Shown here: piece after piece, positions 1 to 36,362 of the stretch
Layout: each line of letters starts with the position of its first letter
Position numbering within the stretch: the first letter of the stretch is position 1
IMG/VR virus record: IMGVR_UViG_3300049043_000030
Coordinates: 1-36,362 of that record
Length of the DNA stretch: 36,362 bases
Source: a virus
Reading direction: 5' to 3' (one strand)
The notes under the pieces: model-generated
The model's database searches: none
What the model was told of the DNA's origin: nothing
What the model saw: the letters and a program-made list of their open reading frames with translations, nothing else
Program-made: the position numbers and the translations under genes

Positions 1-36
1 TTTTTGTCAATATTCTTCGTTCAGTTACGTATTGCT
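1..36 (+). other. Nanopore sequencing adapter (artefact)
   Basis: A T-rich leader is followed at 15-36 by the 22-base 3' end of the Oxford Nanopore ligation adapter top strand (ends CAGTTACGTATTGCT). It is not biological sequence. The identical 22 bases recur at 36341-36362, so the window appears to have a direct terminal repeat that is really adapter. Confidence 0.95.
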
Positions 37-848
37 TTCGCTTTTGCTCTTTAAAAACGAATTGCACTTAACATCTACGCTTGCGCTTTCGTTCGCTGAT
101 TCGCAATAACACGGTGCCGACCATGATCCTTCTATCCCCGGAAGTGTATGGTGCGGCGTCTAGTACCCTCAATAATAATACCTCTCACTTGTACCTGGAC
201 ATCATCTTTTTTCAAAGTATGTTAATTTCATGCCATCGGCAGTCATATCACGACGTACCAGAAGAGCATGCAACGCTCCGTTGCTAATTTCGGTAAAATG
301 CCAATCCAACATACAACTTGCCCTCGATGAAGAACGAATACAAGCCGGATCGGTCGCGTAACACTTGCAACACCTTGCCGACACTTGCACCGTCTGCCGC
401 TTGATCAGTACCTAACTCGGCATCGATAGCTTCAGGCGGAACGGATCTTTCGGATAGCATTTTCTTTACAGACTCCTGCAAGTTGACCGACTTGTAACTC
501 ATGTTGGGTGCAATTGCCTGTTGATAAAAACATTTCATCCTCGCATAGCAATTCAATAGGCACGTTGTTGTTGATTTTGGCAATGTAACCCGTGAATATA
601 ACCGTTTGGTTTGGATGGTATGCCGCAGTAATTATAATCTTATCACCTCTACGCATGATTGGATTTTCGCCCTCATACACGTTGCGGTCATTGTACTTTA
701 TGTTTCTCGGTAGTATAACTGATGCCGTTTGCGTTTGCTTATCGTATGACCTTGCCAATGTAATAGTGTTGACCTTATCCCAATAGTAAGTGTCGCTTCT
801 ACCGTTGCCTTGTTGTTGTATTTCTACCTGGAAACGTAATCTAAACAT
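37..848 (-). CDS. Baseplate hub protein, late-control-D-like (3' end missing)
   Basis: The start is the ATG at 848 (MFRLRFQVEIQQ), which overlaps the stop of the preceding gene. The body has the pattern of gpD/gp27-like hubs: an early beta-rich part with WDKVNTITLARSYDKQ, then RRGDKIIITAAYHP, FTGYIAKINNNVPIELLCED, and later YKSVNLQESVKKML and DDVQVQVRGIII. At least three frameshifts occur (near 500, 290 and 235). The coding frame runs into the read end, so the C-terminus is missing. In contractile tails this trimeric hub sits under the tube and carries the spike. Its place after the tape measure and a DUF6046-like gene supports the call. The family is recognised from pattern only. Confidence 0.7.
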
Positions 849-1532
849 TTTTACGCTCAATTGTATAGTCAGTATCGGAAACCGCTTGCCATTGAAAGTA
901 TTGCACGTTACGCATACCCTGTTGTTGCGATAGTTGGCAACTTTCAACCACTATTTGCGTAATGCCTAAAATGTCATTCAAAAACGTGCTTGTTACCTTT
1001 AACGGCACGGGTGCGCTTGCATAGCTTTTAATCAACCTCGCATCAACATCGGGGTATTCATCGGGGTTCTTTGTCGCAACATAACCGCGTATAGTCAACT
1101 GAATATCCCCCATACTCGATGTACTCCTTAACCGTGCCTACTTTGTCAATCATAGCCGTTTTAATGATGTTTTTTTCGATTGTGGCATCTATGATTACCC
1201 CGTTCAAAAATAGTCCTTTAATTGCTTGCTGATTAGCGTTTGCATCCAACGGGTCACTCACTTGCTTGGTGTTGGTTGCAAGTGCATTTGATGTCTGCAC
1301 GTATTCATTTGTAAAATCATTAAACTCATACGTTGTGAATGTCGGCTGCTCAATTAACAACGTGTCATAAACAGGTGTGCCAAACAATGAAACCGCATCG
1401 GGTTTATCCGTTGTGATGTCAAATGTGTTGGCTAATATTGCACGTTGCACCAACGGCAGTCCGAACCCTTTTGATAGCGTTCTTGCGTTTGTTTTTGCAA
1501 CGGGTTGTGGTATGTAAAATTTTCAAACTCAT
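841..1532 (-). CDS. DUF6046-like tail/baseplate protein
   Basis: About 230 aa after joining three frames. The start at 1532 overlaps the tape-measure stop (ATGA). Landmarks are DAVSLFGTPVYDTLLIEQPT, LNGVIIDATIEKNIIKTA, GTVKEYIEYG, DIQLTIRGYVATKNPDEYPD and LSQQQGMRNVQYFQWQAVS. The order 'SLFGTP, IDAT..KNIVKT, GTVKEYI, IRG, QQ.GMRN' is one I associate with DUF6046 proteins of Bacteroidetes phages, found between tape measure and hub. A baseplate role is inferred from position. Frameshifts lie near 1455 and 1100. Confidence 0.65.
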
Positions 1533-2930
1533 TTTGTTGCCATTAAAGAAAAATCATTAACTGCTTCGATAAGTGCTTGTGCAACGATTTCTTTAATCTC
1601 GCCCGCACTTCTTTTATTTGTGTCGTTTCAACTTTTATCATTTCAACCAACTTGTCAATGCTGATGTTGAAATTCTGCACTCCTCTGCTTTCGAATATAT
1701 TCAAACCTGTACCGCCCTTGGCTTCGGCTTTGGTCTTTGCTTCGCCCATACCTTGCGCGGCTGCTTGGGTGGCTGATACGGGTGGTTAGTAATCCAAATT
1801 GACCTTTAACCTTTTCATAAGTGCCTAATATTGCAGCACGTTTTCTAAAAATTCAGTTTGGTCAATTTCTCCTAACCTTAATGCCTTTCTATTGTTTTGC
1901 AATAGATTGGTTAACTGCTGCATTTGTTCTGCCGCATCCTTGGCAGCTTTTGCAGGCGCATCAACATACATTGCTCTTAATGCACGTTCAAATTGTGTCT
2001 GTTCTTCGTATGCGCCTAATTCAAATACCCTTGCAGGTTTCCAAAATCCTCTAAATGCCTTTGCCCCAAATTTCGCAAAGTGTTCTTGTTGGTCTGCTAT
2101 TTCACCAAATCTTCTACTAAAATGGTCAACCATTTTGTTTAGAAACGATACCGTATTATTCAAAATACTTTGTTCATTTCTACCGATGTTCACTTTCAAC
2201 TGCTTCCAACTATCACCCAAGGCAGATATTTGACCGCCCGTTGTTTTGGCTTGTTGTTGCATCATATCGAAAAACATACCGCCCTCGGCAGTCATTGATT
2301 GGAACGCTTTTTCTACTTCTTTAAATCCAACCTTGCCACTTTCAACCAACTTCATCACCTCGCCATCTGCAACCTTGAACTGCTTTGCTAACTCTTTAAC
2401 AATCGGAATGCCGCGCCCTGTGAATTGAGATATGTCCTTGCTAAACGCCCTACCTTGTGTCTTAAGCGTTCCATACAAGTACGCAATATCGCCAAATGGT
2501 ATCTTCAATGCCGATGCAACATCACCAAGCATGCGAATATTCTCAACTACCTTTCCTGCGCTGAAACCATACGCTAACAATTGCTTCGTGGCATCTTGTA
2601 CCTCAACCAAACTGAACGGTGTTGTTTTTGCAGTTTCTACCAACTGATTTTCCAACGCCTTGGCAGCTTGTGCATCACCTAACATCAATGTGCGCAACGA
2701 TGCCGAAAAGTATTCCGTATCGAACCAAGCTATCTTTTACTGCGCTACCAAACGATACAAGACGCAGCAATGCCTAAACCAATGCCCATTGCACCCGCTA
2801 AACTTCCAAATGCACCTTGTGTTGCATTAACGGCCTTGTTTAGTTGCTCGGTTTTAGAAGTTGCCTCGCTTATTCCGTAGCTAAACTTATCCTTTAACGA
2901 GAGTATATATTCAACCGATGTGTTGCTCAT
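1529..2930 (-). CDS. Tail tape measure protein
   Basis: About 466 aa from ATG 2930 (MSNTSVEYILSLKD), which overlaps the chaperone stop. An N-terminal coiled-coil stretch is followed by a Gly/Ala-rich hydrophobic patch (GSLAGAMGIGLGIAAS). The conserved core includes RTLMLGDAQAAKALENQLVE, GFSAGKVVENIRMLGDVASA and GRGIPIVKELAKQF, typical of the Mu/TIGR02675-type tape measure N-domain. The C-terminus, EIKEIVAQALIEAVNDFSLM, is read after correcting a frameshift near 1605. Other frameshifts lie near 2735 and 1820. It is short for the family, which implies a short contractile tail. Confidence 0.85.
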
Positions 2931-3401
2931 TTCTTAACTTGTATTGTTCCGTTAAACTTCAAAACCCACAATATTTCTTCAATCGAACGCGCCCATTCAT
3001 CATCTGTTAGCGTGTTTGGGTCGGTATGGTAATAAAAACGGATGAGCGCATTCTGTCGTGCAAACTCATCCGTTTCCAATAACTGCTTTGCGGTGTCTAA
3101 TTTTTTTTTAACTCACCTGCTTCCGTGCTTAACATTGGTAGGATGGTCATTGCCGCGCTGCGTAGTGCTTTGAAGTCATTGATGATGGCCTCAACATCGC
3201 CCTCAACACATAACGTGCGCAGGAACGAACTCGACACCCATCAACTCATCTTTGGCAATCAACGCTGATACGGTCTTGTATGCCAATCTATCCATCTCGC
3301 GCAAGTGTACCGTTAGCGGTGCGCCTTGGCGGTTAGAAACGGTTCAGCGTGTAAATTTCAACACCGGGAAACTTTGCTTTTAATTGTTCGATATTTGTCA
3401 T
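2927..3401 (-). CDS. Tail assembly chaperone with A9 slippery run
   Basis: Starts at ATG 3401 (MTNIEQLKAKFPGVEIYTL) and lies between tail tube and tape measure, where tailed phages encode the G/GT-type chaperone that coats the tape measure. The first part runs to LSTEAGELKKK. A nine-adenine run on the coding strand (3101-3109) follows. In the frame as read it continues into LDTAKQLLETDEFARQ to the stop at 2927. A +1 shift on the run gives an immediate TAG. Two-product frameshifting is common in such genes, but a nanopore homopolymer count cannot settle it. Two further frameshifts in the first part (about 3345 and 3220) look like errors. Confidence 0.65.
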
Positions 3402-3423
3402 TGTGATTGATTTTAGTTTAGCG

Positions 3424-3431
3424 CAAATTTA
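3424..3431 (-). promoter_or_regulatory. Possible -7 box (TAAATTTG) for chaperone/tape-measure genes
   Basis: On the minus strand TAAATTTG fits the Bacteroidetes -7 consensus TAnnTTTG and lies 23 bases upstream of the chaperone ATG, just past the tube stop. No well-spaced -33 TTTG is clear, so this is tentative. Confidence 0.3.
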
Positions 3432-3860
3432 CTAAACAAATTCAATATGTGAAACAATCAAAGGCAATTCAATTGGAATTGAAGTGTCACCTGTTGCGGT
3501 TGAAATCATGTTGCTCATAAATCTGCAATTCCGAATTTTATGCACCACAGGAATAAGGATTTGCATCGGTGAAAGTAACAACAATATCAAATTCGGGAAT
3601 GTCTTGTATGCGGCCATTTGGTGCGGCTGATACAATGTTCATTACCTCATTCATCAATACTGTTATCTTTGCCGATGGGTAATCTGCCCAAACCCACGTG
3701 ATACAGGGTATCTGCCAGTTGCATAGATGTTTTCCATGCTATCTTCCTCACCGTATTCAATGGCAGTTACGCCTATGATTGGTGTTCCAAGTACGATGCA
3801 GCTTATATCTGCATATTCATACGCTTTTCCGTTGATTAACGGTAGTCCATTTTGTGCCAT
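3432..3860 (-). CDS. Tail tube protein
   Basis: About 142 aa from ATG 3860 (MAQNGLPLINGKAYEYADIS). Recognisable parts are VTAIEYGEEDSMENIYATGR, RGFGQI, AKITVLMNEVMNIVSAAPNG, IQDIPEFDIVVTFTDAN and the C-terminal PIELPLIVSHIEFV. Size and position directly after the sheath match contractile tail tubes. Two frameshifts (about 3665 and 3560) break the frame as read. Start and stop sit 4 bases and about 30 bases from the neighbouring genes, so it is translated as part of the tail operon. Confidence 0.75.
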
Positions 3861-9874: not shown

Positions 9875-10712
9875 TGAACTATATAAGTTAATGTATCATC
9901 AAAAGTGTGATTGGTGGTGGTTTCCTCTACAACGTAACCCGAATAGGTATCATAAGTCACGCTATCAACACCAGTTGAAAGGTTATATAACGTAACACCT
10001 GCGCTGTACGATACTGTATCACGCCTTACTTTTATACGTGTTAACGATGCCGTAATCACTCCCTCTGCGCTTTGTATCGCATCAACAACCGCTTGCGTAG
10101 TTATGCGGCCATTAAAAGGTAAATTAGCCATGTAACTGTTTAATGCCGCTTTAACATTCGATTGAATGACTGCTGAATATTGACCGTTGTAATATACCGT
10201 TGCTGCCACTTCCATTTTATCGCTGTCCTCGTTGATTAACGTGAAAGCTATGCCTGCGGGGTTAAATGTTTCAACATACGTTTGCAACTCCGCCAATTCG
10301 CCACTTGATACCGGTGTTGGTGGGTCTGCTTCTGGCAACCTTAATCAATACCGTTCTATTTGGTGCTGTTACAACTGCGCATCGTGTTAGTATTTGATTA
10401 GCCACGTTAACGGTTGGGTATTCGATTACGAATGTCGATGTGTTCAACTCTGCAACATCGCCTGTTTGGAACTTCAATACCTTGTTACGTGTCCATTTGC
10501 GGTGTACTTGGTGCTGCCGTTGCTGCTATGTTTTCCAAATCAATCTTAAACAAGTCCTGCAACTGCTCAAACACAGCTATGCAACTCGCCACAATGAAGT
10601 AGTATAAGTTCCACTTTGCTGTTTGACTTGTTGAGGTCAATGCCGATAGTGTTGGGTCTGCATTCTTGGCATCCAACATCTGTTGTTTTATCTGTGCTAC
10701 TGTACGTGCCAT
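9871..10712 (-). CDS. Baseplate J-like protein
   Basis: About 280 aa from ATG 10712 (MARTVAQIKQQMLDAKNADP), overlapping the previous stop. The start SALTSTSQTAKWNLYYFIVA with AVFEQLQDLFKIDLENIAAT, the middle NQILTRCAVV, and the C-terminal AALNSYMANLPFNGRITTQA and AIQSAEGVITASLTRIKVRR match gpJ-type baseplate wedge proteins of Bacteroidetes phages. Frameshifts lie near 10490 and 10330. In P2 and Mu, gpJ forms the wedge that links hub to fibres. Here J and I sit upstream of the capsid operon, away from the rest of the baseplate genes. Confidence 0.75.
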
Positions 10713-10915
10713 TACGATATTGCGGTTATGATGCCGTTAACAACTGTGATGCTGGTAGGGTTGCTGAAAGTGCCACTAACACCATTGTTTAATGTATAGG
10801 TAACGATAGCATCAACATTGGTTATTGATGTTATACCATTTTGATTTACTGGTACTTTCTCGCTGCCATCAAGCGGTGTTGCGCTTGGTAATTCGCTTAT
10901 TTTTTGCTCTGCCAT
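10712..10915 (-). CDS. Short structural protein with ISELP motif
   Basis: 67 aa, intact from ATG 10915 (MAEQKISELPSATPLDGSEK), with TAATG coupling to gpJ. The ISELPSAT.L.GSEKVPV opening is a repeat-like motif found at the start of many phage fibre and collar proteins, and the fibre at 33941 has a similar start. The remainder is Thr/Asn/Val-rich (NGVSGTFSNPTSITVVNGI). It is probably a minor virion protein. Confidence 0.6.
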   Translation of the reverse strand: MAEQKISELPSATPLDGSEKVPVNQNGITSITNVDAIVTYTLNNGVSGTFSNPTSITVVNGIITAIS

Positions 10916-10917
10916 TT

Positions 10918-11493
10918 TTATTGTTGAATTATAAGTTTATATCCTGTTTCCGATAGTAATTCGTAACCCAATTCGCTTGATAACACAACCGAGTCGGGTA
11001 TTGCACCGCTTCGTATTACATCATCCTCTAATTGCGGTGCGTTGTTAGTGATTAACGTTGATACCAATGCTTCAGTTGTTGGTAAACTTGATGCGGTGTA
11101 ATCAAAGCCTTGTAACGTGTAGGTGATGATAAACTCCTGCACATTTGTATGGTTCACAGATTGTATTTCGCTTCTTCTTAAAAACCTGCTGTTGTACGGT
11201 GTTGACCAATTATGTACAAGTGCGTTGAGGTCTTGTTTCAGTTGCAGTATTGCCGTGTCCTCGGTTTTGTAACTTTCATAACCTAAATGCAATGCAATGC
11301 TCAATGTGCCTTGCTGCTGACCTTGTAAGTTTTCAATGTAATCAGCACTTGCAAACTCAATGAAGCAGCACGGATAATTAAACGGTACGTTCACATCCTC
11401 GCGCTCAAATTGATTATTCCACAATGCAACATATTTCAATGCCGCAAGTGTTTCAATTCGTGCTTTTAATAAGTTATAAATCGCTAACTGCAT
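10918..11493 (-). CDS. Unknown head-tail protein, possible tail terminator
   Basis: 191 aa, intact from ATG 11493 (MQLAIYNLLKARIETLAALK), with a four-base overlap with the gpG-like gene. Visible parts are YPCCFIEFASADYIENLQGQ, LSIALHLGYESYKTEDTAIL, FLRRSEIQSVNHTNVQEFII and a C-terminal VLSSELGYELLSETGYKLII. Size, position after a gpG-like gene and the beta-alpha-beta rhythm fit a tail terminator or neck protein. I do not recognise a named family. Confidence 0.6.
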   Translation of the reverse strand: MQLAIYNLLKARIETLAALKYVALWNNQFEREDVNVPFNYPCCFIEFASADYIENLQGQQQGTLSIALHLGYESYKTEDTAILQLKQDLNALVHNWSTPYNSRFLRRSEIQSVNHTNVQEFIITYTLQGFDYTASSLPTTEALVSTLITNNAPQLEDDVIRSGAIPDSVVLSSELGYELLSETGYKLIIQQ

Positions 11494-11950
11494 TATGTGA
11501 ATATTTTATCTAACCGTTTAATAATAACTTTCTTTACCTGCTCATTCAAGTTGTAACTATTCCCCATGAATTGGCGTTTGGGCATTTTAAAACCACTGCA
11601 CGACCTGCTCTTAACCCATCATTATGAACTTTCGCATACACTAAATCACTATGTATCCTAATACTCAACGCTGCTCTGTTTGCGGGTCGCGGATGATCGA
11701 ACGCCTTAAATCGCCTGTTTTAACCAATATCGCTCGTGTTGTATCATCAACCGTTTTGCCGCTTTTGGTCTTGTACGTTTTCTTCTCTTGGCTTCCACTT
11801 ATCAACTGACTTGTCATCCCATCCCTGCTTGCGGAATGATTGCGCAAAGAACACCTTGGCAGTATTACCAACGTCAACAATAGCCGCTTCCATTGCTTTA
11901 CGTGCTTTTTGCTCGGCCTGCTTCATATTAAACTTGTTGCTCTTTGCCAT
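11493..11950 (-). CDS. Virion morphogenesis protein, gpG-like
   Basis: About 152 aa from ATG 11950 (MAKSNKFNMKQAEQKARKAM), overlapping the end of the MuF gene. Conserved stretches are FFAQSFRKQGWDD, GDLRRSI, HSDLVYAKVHNDGLRAGR and FKMPKRQFMGNSYNLNEQVK, the usual layout of Mu gpG/phage virion morphogenesis proteins (GxLRxSI, Y.xxHNxG, PxRxFxG). Frameshifts lie near 11785, 11680 and 11600. It follows the MuF gene as in Mu-like head modules. Confidence 0.75.
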
Positions 11951-12741
11951 TTATGTTGGTATCGGTAAGTTCCAATTTTTTTGCCGCTTCCTTATCACCC
12001 TTTGCCACATCAAAGTAGGGTGCTTATCCTTTCCACGCTCTTTAAACACATAACCATCTATACCCGCATTCATCCTAAATAACGGTGGTACATCATCGGG
12101 TGGCGTAAAGTTGCTCATATCGGTCAACTTCCCTCGGATAGCTGTATTACGGTACAGCGGCAACGCCATCCATTTAGAGGATAGTATTGCTTCCAAAAGG
12201 GGTCGTTAATAGGTCGAATGATGTTGTCAAGTGCTTGATGTGTTGGCCTTACCCTGCCATCACCAACAGTTTGATATTGCAATAACGGCAACACATCGGC
12301 ATCCGCTTCAATTCGCTTCCAGTCCGAAGCCATCCGCGCGCTTGCCTTTGCCGTTTGGTATCTTGGCTTGTAAGTAATCCTCATTGTATAGCTTGAACAT
12401 CTGGCCGTAACCGCTTCCTTGAACTTGTAAAAGTTTGATTTCAATTCGGGGTCTGCCAACATCGCAGTCATAACTCGTGTCTGCTGATACGTTTTCGCTC
12501 CCGAAAATATGTAGATATTGTTTACCAAATCGGCAGTCAATACCTCATCAACAACTGGTGCTAAATCAATACCATCACGTAGGTATTTCGCTGTTTTCAA
12601 ATATATTCCTTCGGGTAACACTTGATTGTTTACCGCACCAATCCATACATCGTTGCTAAAGCGATTAAAATCGTTATCGTCAAACGGTGTTGGTGGGTCA
12701 ACCTCCTTATCAATATTCAATATGTCGCAGTACCCGCACAT
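11928..12741 (-). CDS. Minor head protein, MuF-like
   Basis: About 271 aa from ATG 12741 (MCGYCDILNIDKEVDPPTPF), TAATG-coupled to the portal. The MuF signature is clear: DGRVRPTHQALDNIIRPIND, then PFWKQYYPLNGWRCRCTVIQ, followed after frameshifts near 12125 and 12020 by DVPPLFRMNAGIDGYVFKER and AAKKLELTDTN. MuF proteins sit in the head with the portal and are thought to aid DNA injection or head assembly. Confidence 0.85.
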
Positions 12742-14006
12742 TAACTGTATATGTTCCTTAATCTTTTAGCAATGTTTTCAACTTCACTTTCGACATATAT
12801 CTTGCCATCGCTTGTTTCTTCACCGCCCATGTCCTCCGCTTGTTCGTGTGCCAATGTTTCCATCAATTCAATGCCGTATTTCTTTTCTAAATACTCATTG
12901 TCGAACTTCATGTAAGGCATAAAGGAAGCATCAATCTTGGCTTGGTCTGCAATCGATAAACTTTCGGTGTCATCATACTTGAATGTGCAGCCGTTGAGAT
13001 CAAAACCATTTCTAATCATCATCGGCACCAGTTGGTTTTCAATGATAAACTGCATCTTTAACGTGTCCTGTTTCGCTATCATAGCAGCAACGTTTTCGTG
13101 TACGTTTGCACTGCCTGAATACGCCTTTTCATCTGTTGTGCCTGTTTCGGCCCAAATAATCTTGCTAATTTCACTATTGCAACGCTCAACCATTTTATCA
13201 AACACCGCATAAGCATCTGTTCTGCTTGCTTGCATCAACTCAATGTTATCATTCAAATCTAATACCGCCCACGATGCAACACCCATGTTTTTTAGCATGT
13301 TTTCCATGTTTCTGCGGGTTTGTTCATCCCTCACATCGGTCTTGCCAACCCTTATTGGACTGCCGAACACCTCTGCAAACTCCGCCCACGCTGCCATTGC
13401 GTTTTTCTTCCAAATCACATAAGGTGCAAGGTACATCATCAAGCCAAGGTCTTTCTTTTCGCCAACTCCAATACACCAGTTGTTATACGGTGCTTCATCA
13501 AAGTGCTTGCCTTCCGTTACCGTTGCAGTATTGGTTCTAACCAAGCTAAATTCAGGAACTACGTATATTCTCGGTATCAACTCAACACTTGAATACTTAT
13601 CGTTAACTATCGCACCGAATTGAACGCAGGAAAAGCCCCAAAAGATGCTGTCTAAAGCTAAATTTTGGAAGTCATAAAACCATTTTTGGTTGAATAGGTT
13701 TGTTTTATCATCGTCAACTTCGCCATCAGGGCCACACACCATAAACTTCTTGCACAATACCTTACTCTTGCGCTGCAACATTGCCGATTGCACTTGACCA
13801 TCAAGCACTATCTGCTGATAGGTTTCGGATCAACAAAAAGCGGTTAGGGTACATCGGACTTTCTGCCGCTGTAATCGCTATGTTAAACTTTGTAGCATCC
13901 TGCCTTACCCTTTGCAGTTGTTGTCAAAATCAATCGTTTCGTTTTGCGAATGTTAGCCTTTTGCGGCTGTGGTTTATTAAAGTTGAATATATCGTAACTA
14001 AGCCAT
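12741..14006 (-). CDS. Portal protein, DUF935/Mu gp29-like
   Basis: About 421 aa. From 13808 the frame is intact to the stop at 12741. The N-terminus (YDIFNFNKPQPQKANIRKTK, FNIAITAAESPMYPNRFLL) is spread over two frames, and ATG 14006 is the likely start. Markers are LALDSIFWGFSCVQFG, ELIPRIYVVPE, FAEVFGSPIRVGKTD, MLKNMGVASWAVLDLNDNIE and CNSEISKIIWAETGTTDEKA, the layout of DUF935 portals. The ring forms the head vertex and DNA channel. Confidence 0.85.
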
Positions 14007-34885: not shown

Positions 34886-34935
34886 AGCAATACGTAACTG
34901 TTTTAGCAAATCTACTCGTTCAGTTTATTGTTGCT
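34886..34935. other. Internal nanopore adapter junction (chimeric read)
   Basis: AGCAATACGTAACTG (34886-34900) is the exact reverse complement of 22-36, the bottom strand of the ligation adapter. A noisy forward copy follows at 34912-34935 (CTACTCGTTCAGTTTATTG, then TTGCT). This is the signature of one read ending and the next beginning without being split. Sequence on either side should not be treated as linked. Confidence 0.93.
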
Positions 34936-34941
34936 AAATAA

Positions 34942-35700
34942 AGGAGACCAATTAAAGCGAACCCAGATCAGAAACGGTTGTTTGATGATTATGGTGATAG
35001 TTATGTTTCTGGGATCCTTCTGCTTCATTACAAGCTAAACCAAGCGAAGAAACTCAAACCCGCCAACCCGAAAGGAAGCACCAAGAAAACCACTGAAAAC
35101 ATCGCCATTAAGTATGCATATATTAGCAATGAGCTGGATCTTTCCAAAAACACCTTCAAAGAGGCGATTGCGAAGAAGCACTACCGCAAAAACGAATGCT
35201 GGATCAACACGCTCATGGACATTTACGGTGATACGCTTCTGTCCAAAGACAAACAACGATACCGTCTAACTCGTGAGAAGCTCTTGCAAATCATAGGCAG
35301 AACTGAAGAAACTATAGCAAACGGACTCACGATCCAAGAGATGGAGCCCTTCTTCGTCAAGTTCCGTCTTGCAAGTTCGGATCTTTGATGCATGTTATAA
35401 CTGCATTTATGAATACGACCCCCGTTCCGAAATCATCATAACAAGGTGCTCTACTGCTTAGCCAAAAACAATCACATTTACACCTTGAATTATAACATCA
35501 AGTCCCTTGAGCAAACCCGCAACGACATTGATGAGGAAGAGGAGGATGATGAACAAGCCATGACCGTAAGGGCATCCTCTGACTATAGGATTGTTGAAGA
35601 CCGCAACACGGAATACTGCAGAATGATCCAAAACATTGATGATATCTTGGAGGTGATCAAGGAGGAAGTTGCAAAGCACGGCGATACGTTAATTTTGTAA
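34942..35700 (+). CDS. Unknown partial gene on the second, unrelated molecule
   Basis: About 250 codons on the plus strand, open from the adapter junction, so the 5' end is missing. The first frame (34942-35388) has DDYGDSYVSGILLLHYKLNQ, KYAYISNELDLSKNTFKEAI and REKLLQIIGRTEETIANGL. After two frameshifts near 35375-35440 it continues with VRIFDACYNCIYEYDP, LYCLAKNNHIYTLNYNIKSL and, after an acidic stretch, MIQNIDDILEVIKEEVAKHG. I do not recognise the family. Its strand, codon use and spacing differ from the phage, and its source could be another virus or a eukaryote. Confidence 0.5.
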
Positions 35701-35862
35701 CAACTAGTACATATTTCTTACCTTTATATATATATTGTTAAGATTCATTGAATTTAACCGCTTAAATGATACTCAGATGTTAGATCGACTGTAAGAAATT
35801 ATGTAGCAGACAGACGTCAATACACAGGGTTAGTTTTTAAGGTCTTTTAGATATAAAATGCA

Positions 35863-35889
35863 ATCTATCCCACTATTAGTGGGATAGAT
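35863..35889. repeat. Perfect palindrome, 13-bp arms
   Basis: ATCTATCCCACTA and TAGTGGGATAGAT flank a single T. It can form a hairpin in RNA or a protein-binding dyad. There is no T-tract, and it lies about 160 bases after the plus-strand gene, so it could help define a 3' end. Confidence 0.85.
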
Positions 35890-35942
35890 GATATCAAAAT
35901 TTGAAAGAAATAAGATAACCTTAATGTTGTCAATGAATCCAA

Positions 35943-35964
35943 AATCTATTGAATTCAATAGATT
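35943..35964. repeat. Perfect palindrome, 22 bp
   Basis: AATCTATTGAA followed directly by TTCAATAGATT, fully self-complementary with an EcoRI-type centre GAATTC. It lies 53 bases after the first palindrome. Confidence 0.85.
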
Positions 35965-36114
35965 GAAATATACATTAACTGCCAAAGCTTTATATTATTA
36001 AATATCTATTTAGATTATAGAAAATATGTAATTTGGAAGAAGAGATTTCAACCAACTCTAAATACAATATTAGAAGAATAAATATATGTTCATACAAAGT
36101 GTCCTCGTAGGAAC

Positions 36115-36312
36115 TCACAGATAGTCAGATAATTGTCTTTCTGCAGTATGTGGATCCTGTGTATATTGTTGTCTCCAATTATCCATTTCATGAAGATATA
36201 TCTGTGAAAAATTTACAGCATTACTTGCATTGGAATTACTGGGATCAATTCCATGACTCTCCATATGCCGTCTAAAAGTGCGTTAGCTTGATTATTTCTA
36301 ACAGCTGGGTCT
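36115..36312 (-). CDS. C-terminal fragment on the second molecule
   Basis: On the minus strand a frame entering from the adapter boundary reads DPAVRNNQANALLDG and then, after one frameshift near 36270, RHMESHGIDPSNSNASNAVN, FSQIYLHEMDNWRQQYTQDP and HTAERQLSDYL-stop. The composition is coding-like. The N-terminus is missing and the family is not recognised. Confidence 0.4.
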
Positions 36313-36362
36313 AGCAATCGTAAGTAAATGTTTTTTGGGCCTTCGTTCAGTTACGTATTGCT
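36313..36362. other. Terminal nanopore adapters (artefact)
   Basis: AGCAATCGTAAGTAAATG (36313-36330) is a noisy reverse-complement adapter, the end of the second molecule. A T-run leader and an exact 22-base forward adapter end (36341-36362) follow, the start of a further read. The last 22 bases equal bases 15-36. Confidence 0.93.

Follow-up and report, generated by a model that had tools for sequence, protein, structure and literature searches.

ONT ligation adapters separate a phage genome from unrelated DNA within a single IMG/VR virus record

The window analysed here is an entire IMG/VR virus record (36,362 bases, classed linear), and the join that it contains between a phage genome and a short downstream tail is a sequencing artefact. 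The record is almost certainly ONT ligation-kit sequence, produced when at least two unrelated molecules followed each other rapidly through a single pore and were left unsplit. Adapters occur inside the record in the order end, then start, and the tail beyond them is absent from related phages. The join therefore represents nothing biologically novel, and the linkage should be discarded.

The published ligation Y-adapter has a top sequence (...AATGTACTTCGTTCAGTTACGTATTGCT) and a bottom sequence (GCAATACGTAACTGAACGAAGT) (PMC9965538), and the start and end adapter sequences are likewise printed in PMC7490894. At positions 34886-34900 the window reads AGCAATACGTAACTG, which matches the first 15 bases of the reverse-complement adapter without error. 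This is the top reverse-complement match in the whole window (score 30), and 12 Markov-shuffled versions of the entire window scored 23 at most. After a spacing of 8 nt, a noisy forward adapter is present at 34909-34930 (AATCTAC-TCGTTCAGTT---TATTG), carrying one substitution and two gaps and reaching a score of 32 over 34909-34937 under a lenient scheme. This arrangement agrees with the original prediction, made from the letters alone, of an exact 15-base reverse-complement adapter followed by a noisy forward adapter. Given the probability of each match in a given 50-nt stretch of Markov-generated sequence (Table 1), the occurrence of an end adapter and a start adapter in that order at 34,886-34,938 is far beyond chance.

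It is the ordered pair that stands out, since the noisy forward half alone is unremarkable across 36 kb. Its score of 27 falls within the maxima of the whole-window Markov shuffles (21-29), and to that extent a chance adapter resemblance at a real border of the phage with a host or an element, such as a prophage edge or a recent insertion, could account for this half of the junction. However, the end-adapter half is exact, and the forward half follows it immediately, in the expected order. In addition, the record closes with an exact copy of the same adapter and opens with a nearly exact one. The probability of a chance resemblance is consequently negligible.

Gene orientation switches at the junction as had been predicted, with long ORFs on the minus strand before it and on the plus strand after it, and AT skew changes sign. 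A change in base composition had been placed at the same point, but it is weak there. GC content is nearly flat across the junction (0.393 before versus 0.370 after), and its marked fall comes further on, at ~35.7 kb (from 0.45 to 0.29). Fold-back of the same molecule can be dismissed, since the two parts are not connected by any long inverted repeat.

When a ligation kit is used, a strand ends with the bottom sequence of the adapter, which is partly called while leaving the pore, and the next strand opens with a poly-T leader and the top adapter. Both the order of the adapters and the truncation observed at the junction fit successive strand reading of this kind. Molecule 1 (37-34,885) would have been read to its end, with the trailing adapter called for 15 bases, and the next molecule's leader and start adapter would have come at once (34,909-34,937). 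About 1.4 kb of unrelated DNA would have followed, and then a further pair of end and start adapters (36,313-36,362), where the record stops. Read splitting would have failed, allowing the product to enter the virus collection. The start adapter between the inserts leads us to infer that the join was made at pore reloading and in read splitting, and not earlier in the library tube.

A wet-lab origin would mean that end-to-end ligation of two molecules during library preparation had trapped the adapter between them, and chimeric reads of ligation libraries are a documented precedent (PMC5600009). Insert-to-insert ligation, however, would leave no end adapter followed by a start adapter. Furthermore, end adapters throughout metagenome 3300049043 are usually truncated at a similar length, the commonest forms being 12 and 15 bases, of which the window carries the 15-base form. 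We consider a wet-lab chimera very improbable on these grounds.

The window contains intact ORFs of up to 355 aa, which indicates fewer errors than in an early raw read. The record may be a fairly accurate read, or else a consensus that was corrected or built at low coverage. Were it a consensus, support across the join would in principle be conceivable, and this would count against the chimeric reading.

Table 1. Layout of the 36,362-base record
Feature	Position	Strand	Basis
Probable poly-T leader	1-8		mostly T
Forward ONT ligation Y-adapter, start of molecule 1	9-36	+	26/28 bases match; phage homology from base 37
Molecule 1: nearly complete, circularly permuted contractile-tailed phage genome, Flavobacterium-phage-related	37-34885	-	terminase, portal, head protease, sheath, tape measure; portal identities
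End adapter (reverse complement), first 15 bases exact, end of molecule 1	34886-34900	-	15/15; P ~5e-5 per 50 nt
Spacer between adapters, probably noisy leader signal	34901-34908	.	8 nt, inside the 2-29 nt range of 33 junctions in metagenome 3300049043
Noisy forward adapter, start of molecule 2	34909-34937	+	aligned at 34909-34930; adapter end estimated; P ~1.5e-4 per 50 nt
Molecule 2: partial function-unassigned gene, two frameshifts, element unrelated to phage	34938-35680	+	protein match to L119 3838-4490
Possible very noisy end adapter (candidate third junction)	35681-35712	-	score 26; P 0.003 per 80 nt, 0.07 over whole tail
A+T-rich tail remainder, same molecule as 34938-35680 or a third	35713-36312	.	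GC 0.22-0.37; reading frames
Apparent 3' end of gene within A+T-rich remainder	~36125-36312	-	reading frames
Noisy end adapter AGCAAT-CGTAAGTAAA, end of preceding molecule	36313-36328	-	score 21, P ~0.02 alone; directly upstream of exact start adapter
Forward adapter, exact, start of further molecule absent from record	36341-36362	+	22/22; ends on record's last base

The DNA preceding the junction has the features of a Flavobacterium-type myovirus. PHROG matches on the minus strand identify terminase, portal, head maturation protease, tail sheath, tape measure and RNA ligase genes, and the unit genome is ~35 kb in size, of which the window holds 34,849 nt and, when set against relatives, lacks ~0.55 kb. 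The portal protein has 105 relatives in IMG/VR, of which 80 were kept, and most of these are 77-89% identical to it. In one relative (G001), a single stretch of the window (~258-647 in query coordinates) finds matches close to each end of that relative's record, as expected if the map of ~34.7 kb is circular or terminally redundant. The order of matches in relatives likewise places the end of the window's phage portion (~34.69-34.74 kb) and its start (37 onward) close together on the map.

Five related phages share a conserved stretch that links the phage end to the phage start. This linking stretch spans ~0.75-1.1 kb (746 to 1086 bases as cut out), is 77-94% alike over its main aligned pieces and includes a gene of ~170 aa. 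Only ~200 + 142 bases of its equivalent are present in the window, so ~0.55 kb is missing and at most the 3' end of the ~170 aa gene is kept. Judged against these relatives, the genome of molecule 1 is nearly complete, and the point at which it breaks off, within a region conserved among the phages, coincides exactly with the start of the adapter. All five relatives continue via the conserved gene into sequence corresponding to the start of the window, without the tail. This result upholds the earlier claims that 34886-34935 is a chimeric junction of two molecules, to which the adapter order and the placement of the tail gene's relative in a different element also speak, and that any linkage of the phage to the 34.9-36.3 kb part is spurious. 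A search of the remaining adapter-bearing records, made without a positive control, returned no further copy of the phage.

The DNA that follows the junction amounts to 1,375 bases (34,938-36,312) and begins with a plus-strand gene that is broken by two frameshifts and extends to ~35.7 kb. Comparison with the related phages tested gave no convincing match to the tail, which is absent from all 10 related records examined for it. A 40-base match in L118 (BLASTN, E = 0.003) was judged to be due to chance. Searches for relatives of the tail in IMG/VR (three peptide queries), genome contigs, phages and plasmids (tblastn), phages (DNA), Pfam and PDB returned nothing convincing, and none were found for the A+T-rich remainder (35713-36312). 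A palindrome within this A+T-rich portion (ATCTATCCCACTATTAGTGGGATAGAT, ~35868-35894) lies between two convergent reading frames and by eye resembles a transcription-end hairpin.

The only relative detected for the tail gene came from a DNA search of adapter-bearing records. It is located at 3838-4490 of L119 (record 3300049043_000066, itself a concatenate) and matches with 55% identity over 76 aa and 46% over 69 aa. Genes for an SF1 helicase, an rve integrase and a P-loop ATPase lie within a few kb of this relative and, because of these neighbours, a polinton-like or virophage-like element is tentatively suggested as the source of the tail gene, as a lead rather than a classification. The tail gene matches no Pfam family. 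Its assignment as a family B DNA polymerase is unsupported, there being no Pfam match for either the tail gene or its longer relative.

As in the window, the relative in L119 directly follows a forward adapter. The two molecules thus carry related genes and both start just after an adapter, near the same gene position (L119 3838 and window 34938). This shared start point could be a coincidence or could reflect a natural genome end. A bolder proposal is that 34.9-35.7 kb derives from a polinton-like or virophage-like element not described before, with a Pfam-less gene family of which one other copy was detected (in 3300049043) and whose shared start might mark a natural genome end; we regard this as unlikely.

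The same L119 record contains a long inverted duplication around adapters (2-3771 versus 9974-13852; 95% identity over 3 kb), in which an adapter-bearing insert of ~130 nt is present in one copy only. The duplication probably arose from consecutive reading of complementary strands or of sister molecules. The adapter stretch at ~13010-13140 interrupts sequence that is continuous in the reverse-complement copy at 739, which demonstrates that an internal adapter is not always a border between unrelated DNA in 3300049043. This case is an argument for supposing that the adapter at 34.9 kb was inserted by basecalling or assembly into one continuous molecule, and that phage and tail are truly linked. 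For the window, however, the DNA beyond the adapter differs from the continuation seen in the five related phages, the relative of the tail gene lies in another kind of element, and the tail occurs in 0/10 of the related records tested. An adapter inserted into continuous DNA is therefore exceedingly improbable here, and successive reading of separate molecules is the explanation that we retain.

Besides the junction at 34.9 kb, the record has a second one at its end and possibly a third. The protein homology between the tail gene and L119 ends at ~35.67 kb, where GC content also falls, and the sequence immediately downstream (35681-35712) resembles a noisy reverse-complement adapter (Table 1). 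The odds of a third junction near 35.68 kb are roughly even, making it possible but unproven. A second junction of end and start adapters closes the record at 36313-36362, the end-adapter half of this pair being weak; neither this junction nor the forward adapter at 9-36 was part of the original prediction. The closing stretch resembles junctions in L016 and L024, both from metagenome 3300049043, at 84-85%, and the first 36 bases of the window are identical to a junction in L023. The record stops precisely on the last base of the adapter (36,362).

A direct repeat of 22 bases joins the two ends of the record (15-36 and 36341-36362). Because forward adapters occupy 9-36 and 36341-36362, this repeat is the adapter and not a terminal repeat of the genome, for which it could easily be mistaken.

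The adapter is widespread in metagenome 3300049043, from which the window very probably comes as well. An exact 22-mer of its sequence was found in 26 stretches in IMG/VR, all 26 from 3300049043, and at least 20 distinct records of this metagenome carry the adapter (one of them added via a paired pattern). When up to 3 mismatches were permitted, the adapter was present in 20/20 records and a reversed control pattern in 0/20. Among the analysed pieces of 3300049043, a truncated end adapter lies within 45 nt upstream of an internal start adapter in 33 of 50 cases, at spacings of 2-29 nt, compared with 197 of 10,800 random positions (1.8%). No source paper naming 3300049043 was found in the literature.

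Individual records of the metagenome (L005-L031) hold up to 11 adapter copies in 120,672 bases and 10 copies in 38,252 bases, and several of its apparent large phages are probably concatenates. The same adapter is also present in seven phage genomes deposited in GenBank (PP337211, OP583595, OP583592, OQ378339, OQ790081, PQ641084 and OQ790078). It is positioned at a record end in six of these and internally in PP337211 (58047-58078).

Claims that the phage carries the genes at 34.9-36.3 kb would be false, and the finding is useful as a data-quality warning. Since at least 20 records carry the adapter, many of them internally, any large phage, gained gene or host link that 3300049043 seems to offer needs adapter screening before use.

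Each part of the record can be compared with known systems. Molecule 1 resembles Flavobacterium phages such as vB_FspM_lotta8-2 and FPSV-S1 in genome size (34.6-35.2 kb) and in its homologous portal (32-36% identical), whereas its nearer kin are uncultivated IMG/VR phages with portals up to 89% identical (80 kept loci). Molecule 2 is compared tentatively with polinton-like viruses and virophages through the neighbours of its relative, namely the rve integrase, SF1 helicase and P-loop ATPase, which are located in L119 and not in the window. The tail itself holds only a gene fragment, with none of the hallmark genes of these elements (capsid, integrase, polymerase and packaging ATPase).

The record as a whole corresponds to the unsplit (‘in silico’) chimeric reads of nanopore sequencing. 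As in such reads, end-then-start adapters lie between unrelated inserts, here from different genomes as judged by the relatives that lack the tail and by the tail gene's relative elsewhere. Adapters also occupy the ends of the record, and the pattern recurs within one dataset. Unlike those reads, which reside in raw-read files, this sequence has been filed as one viral genome among the entries of a public virus collection.
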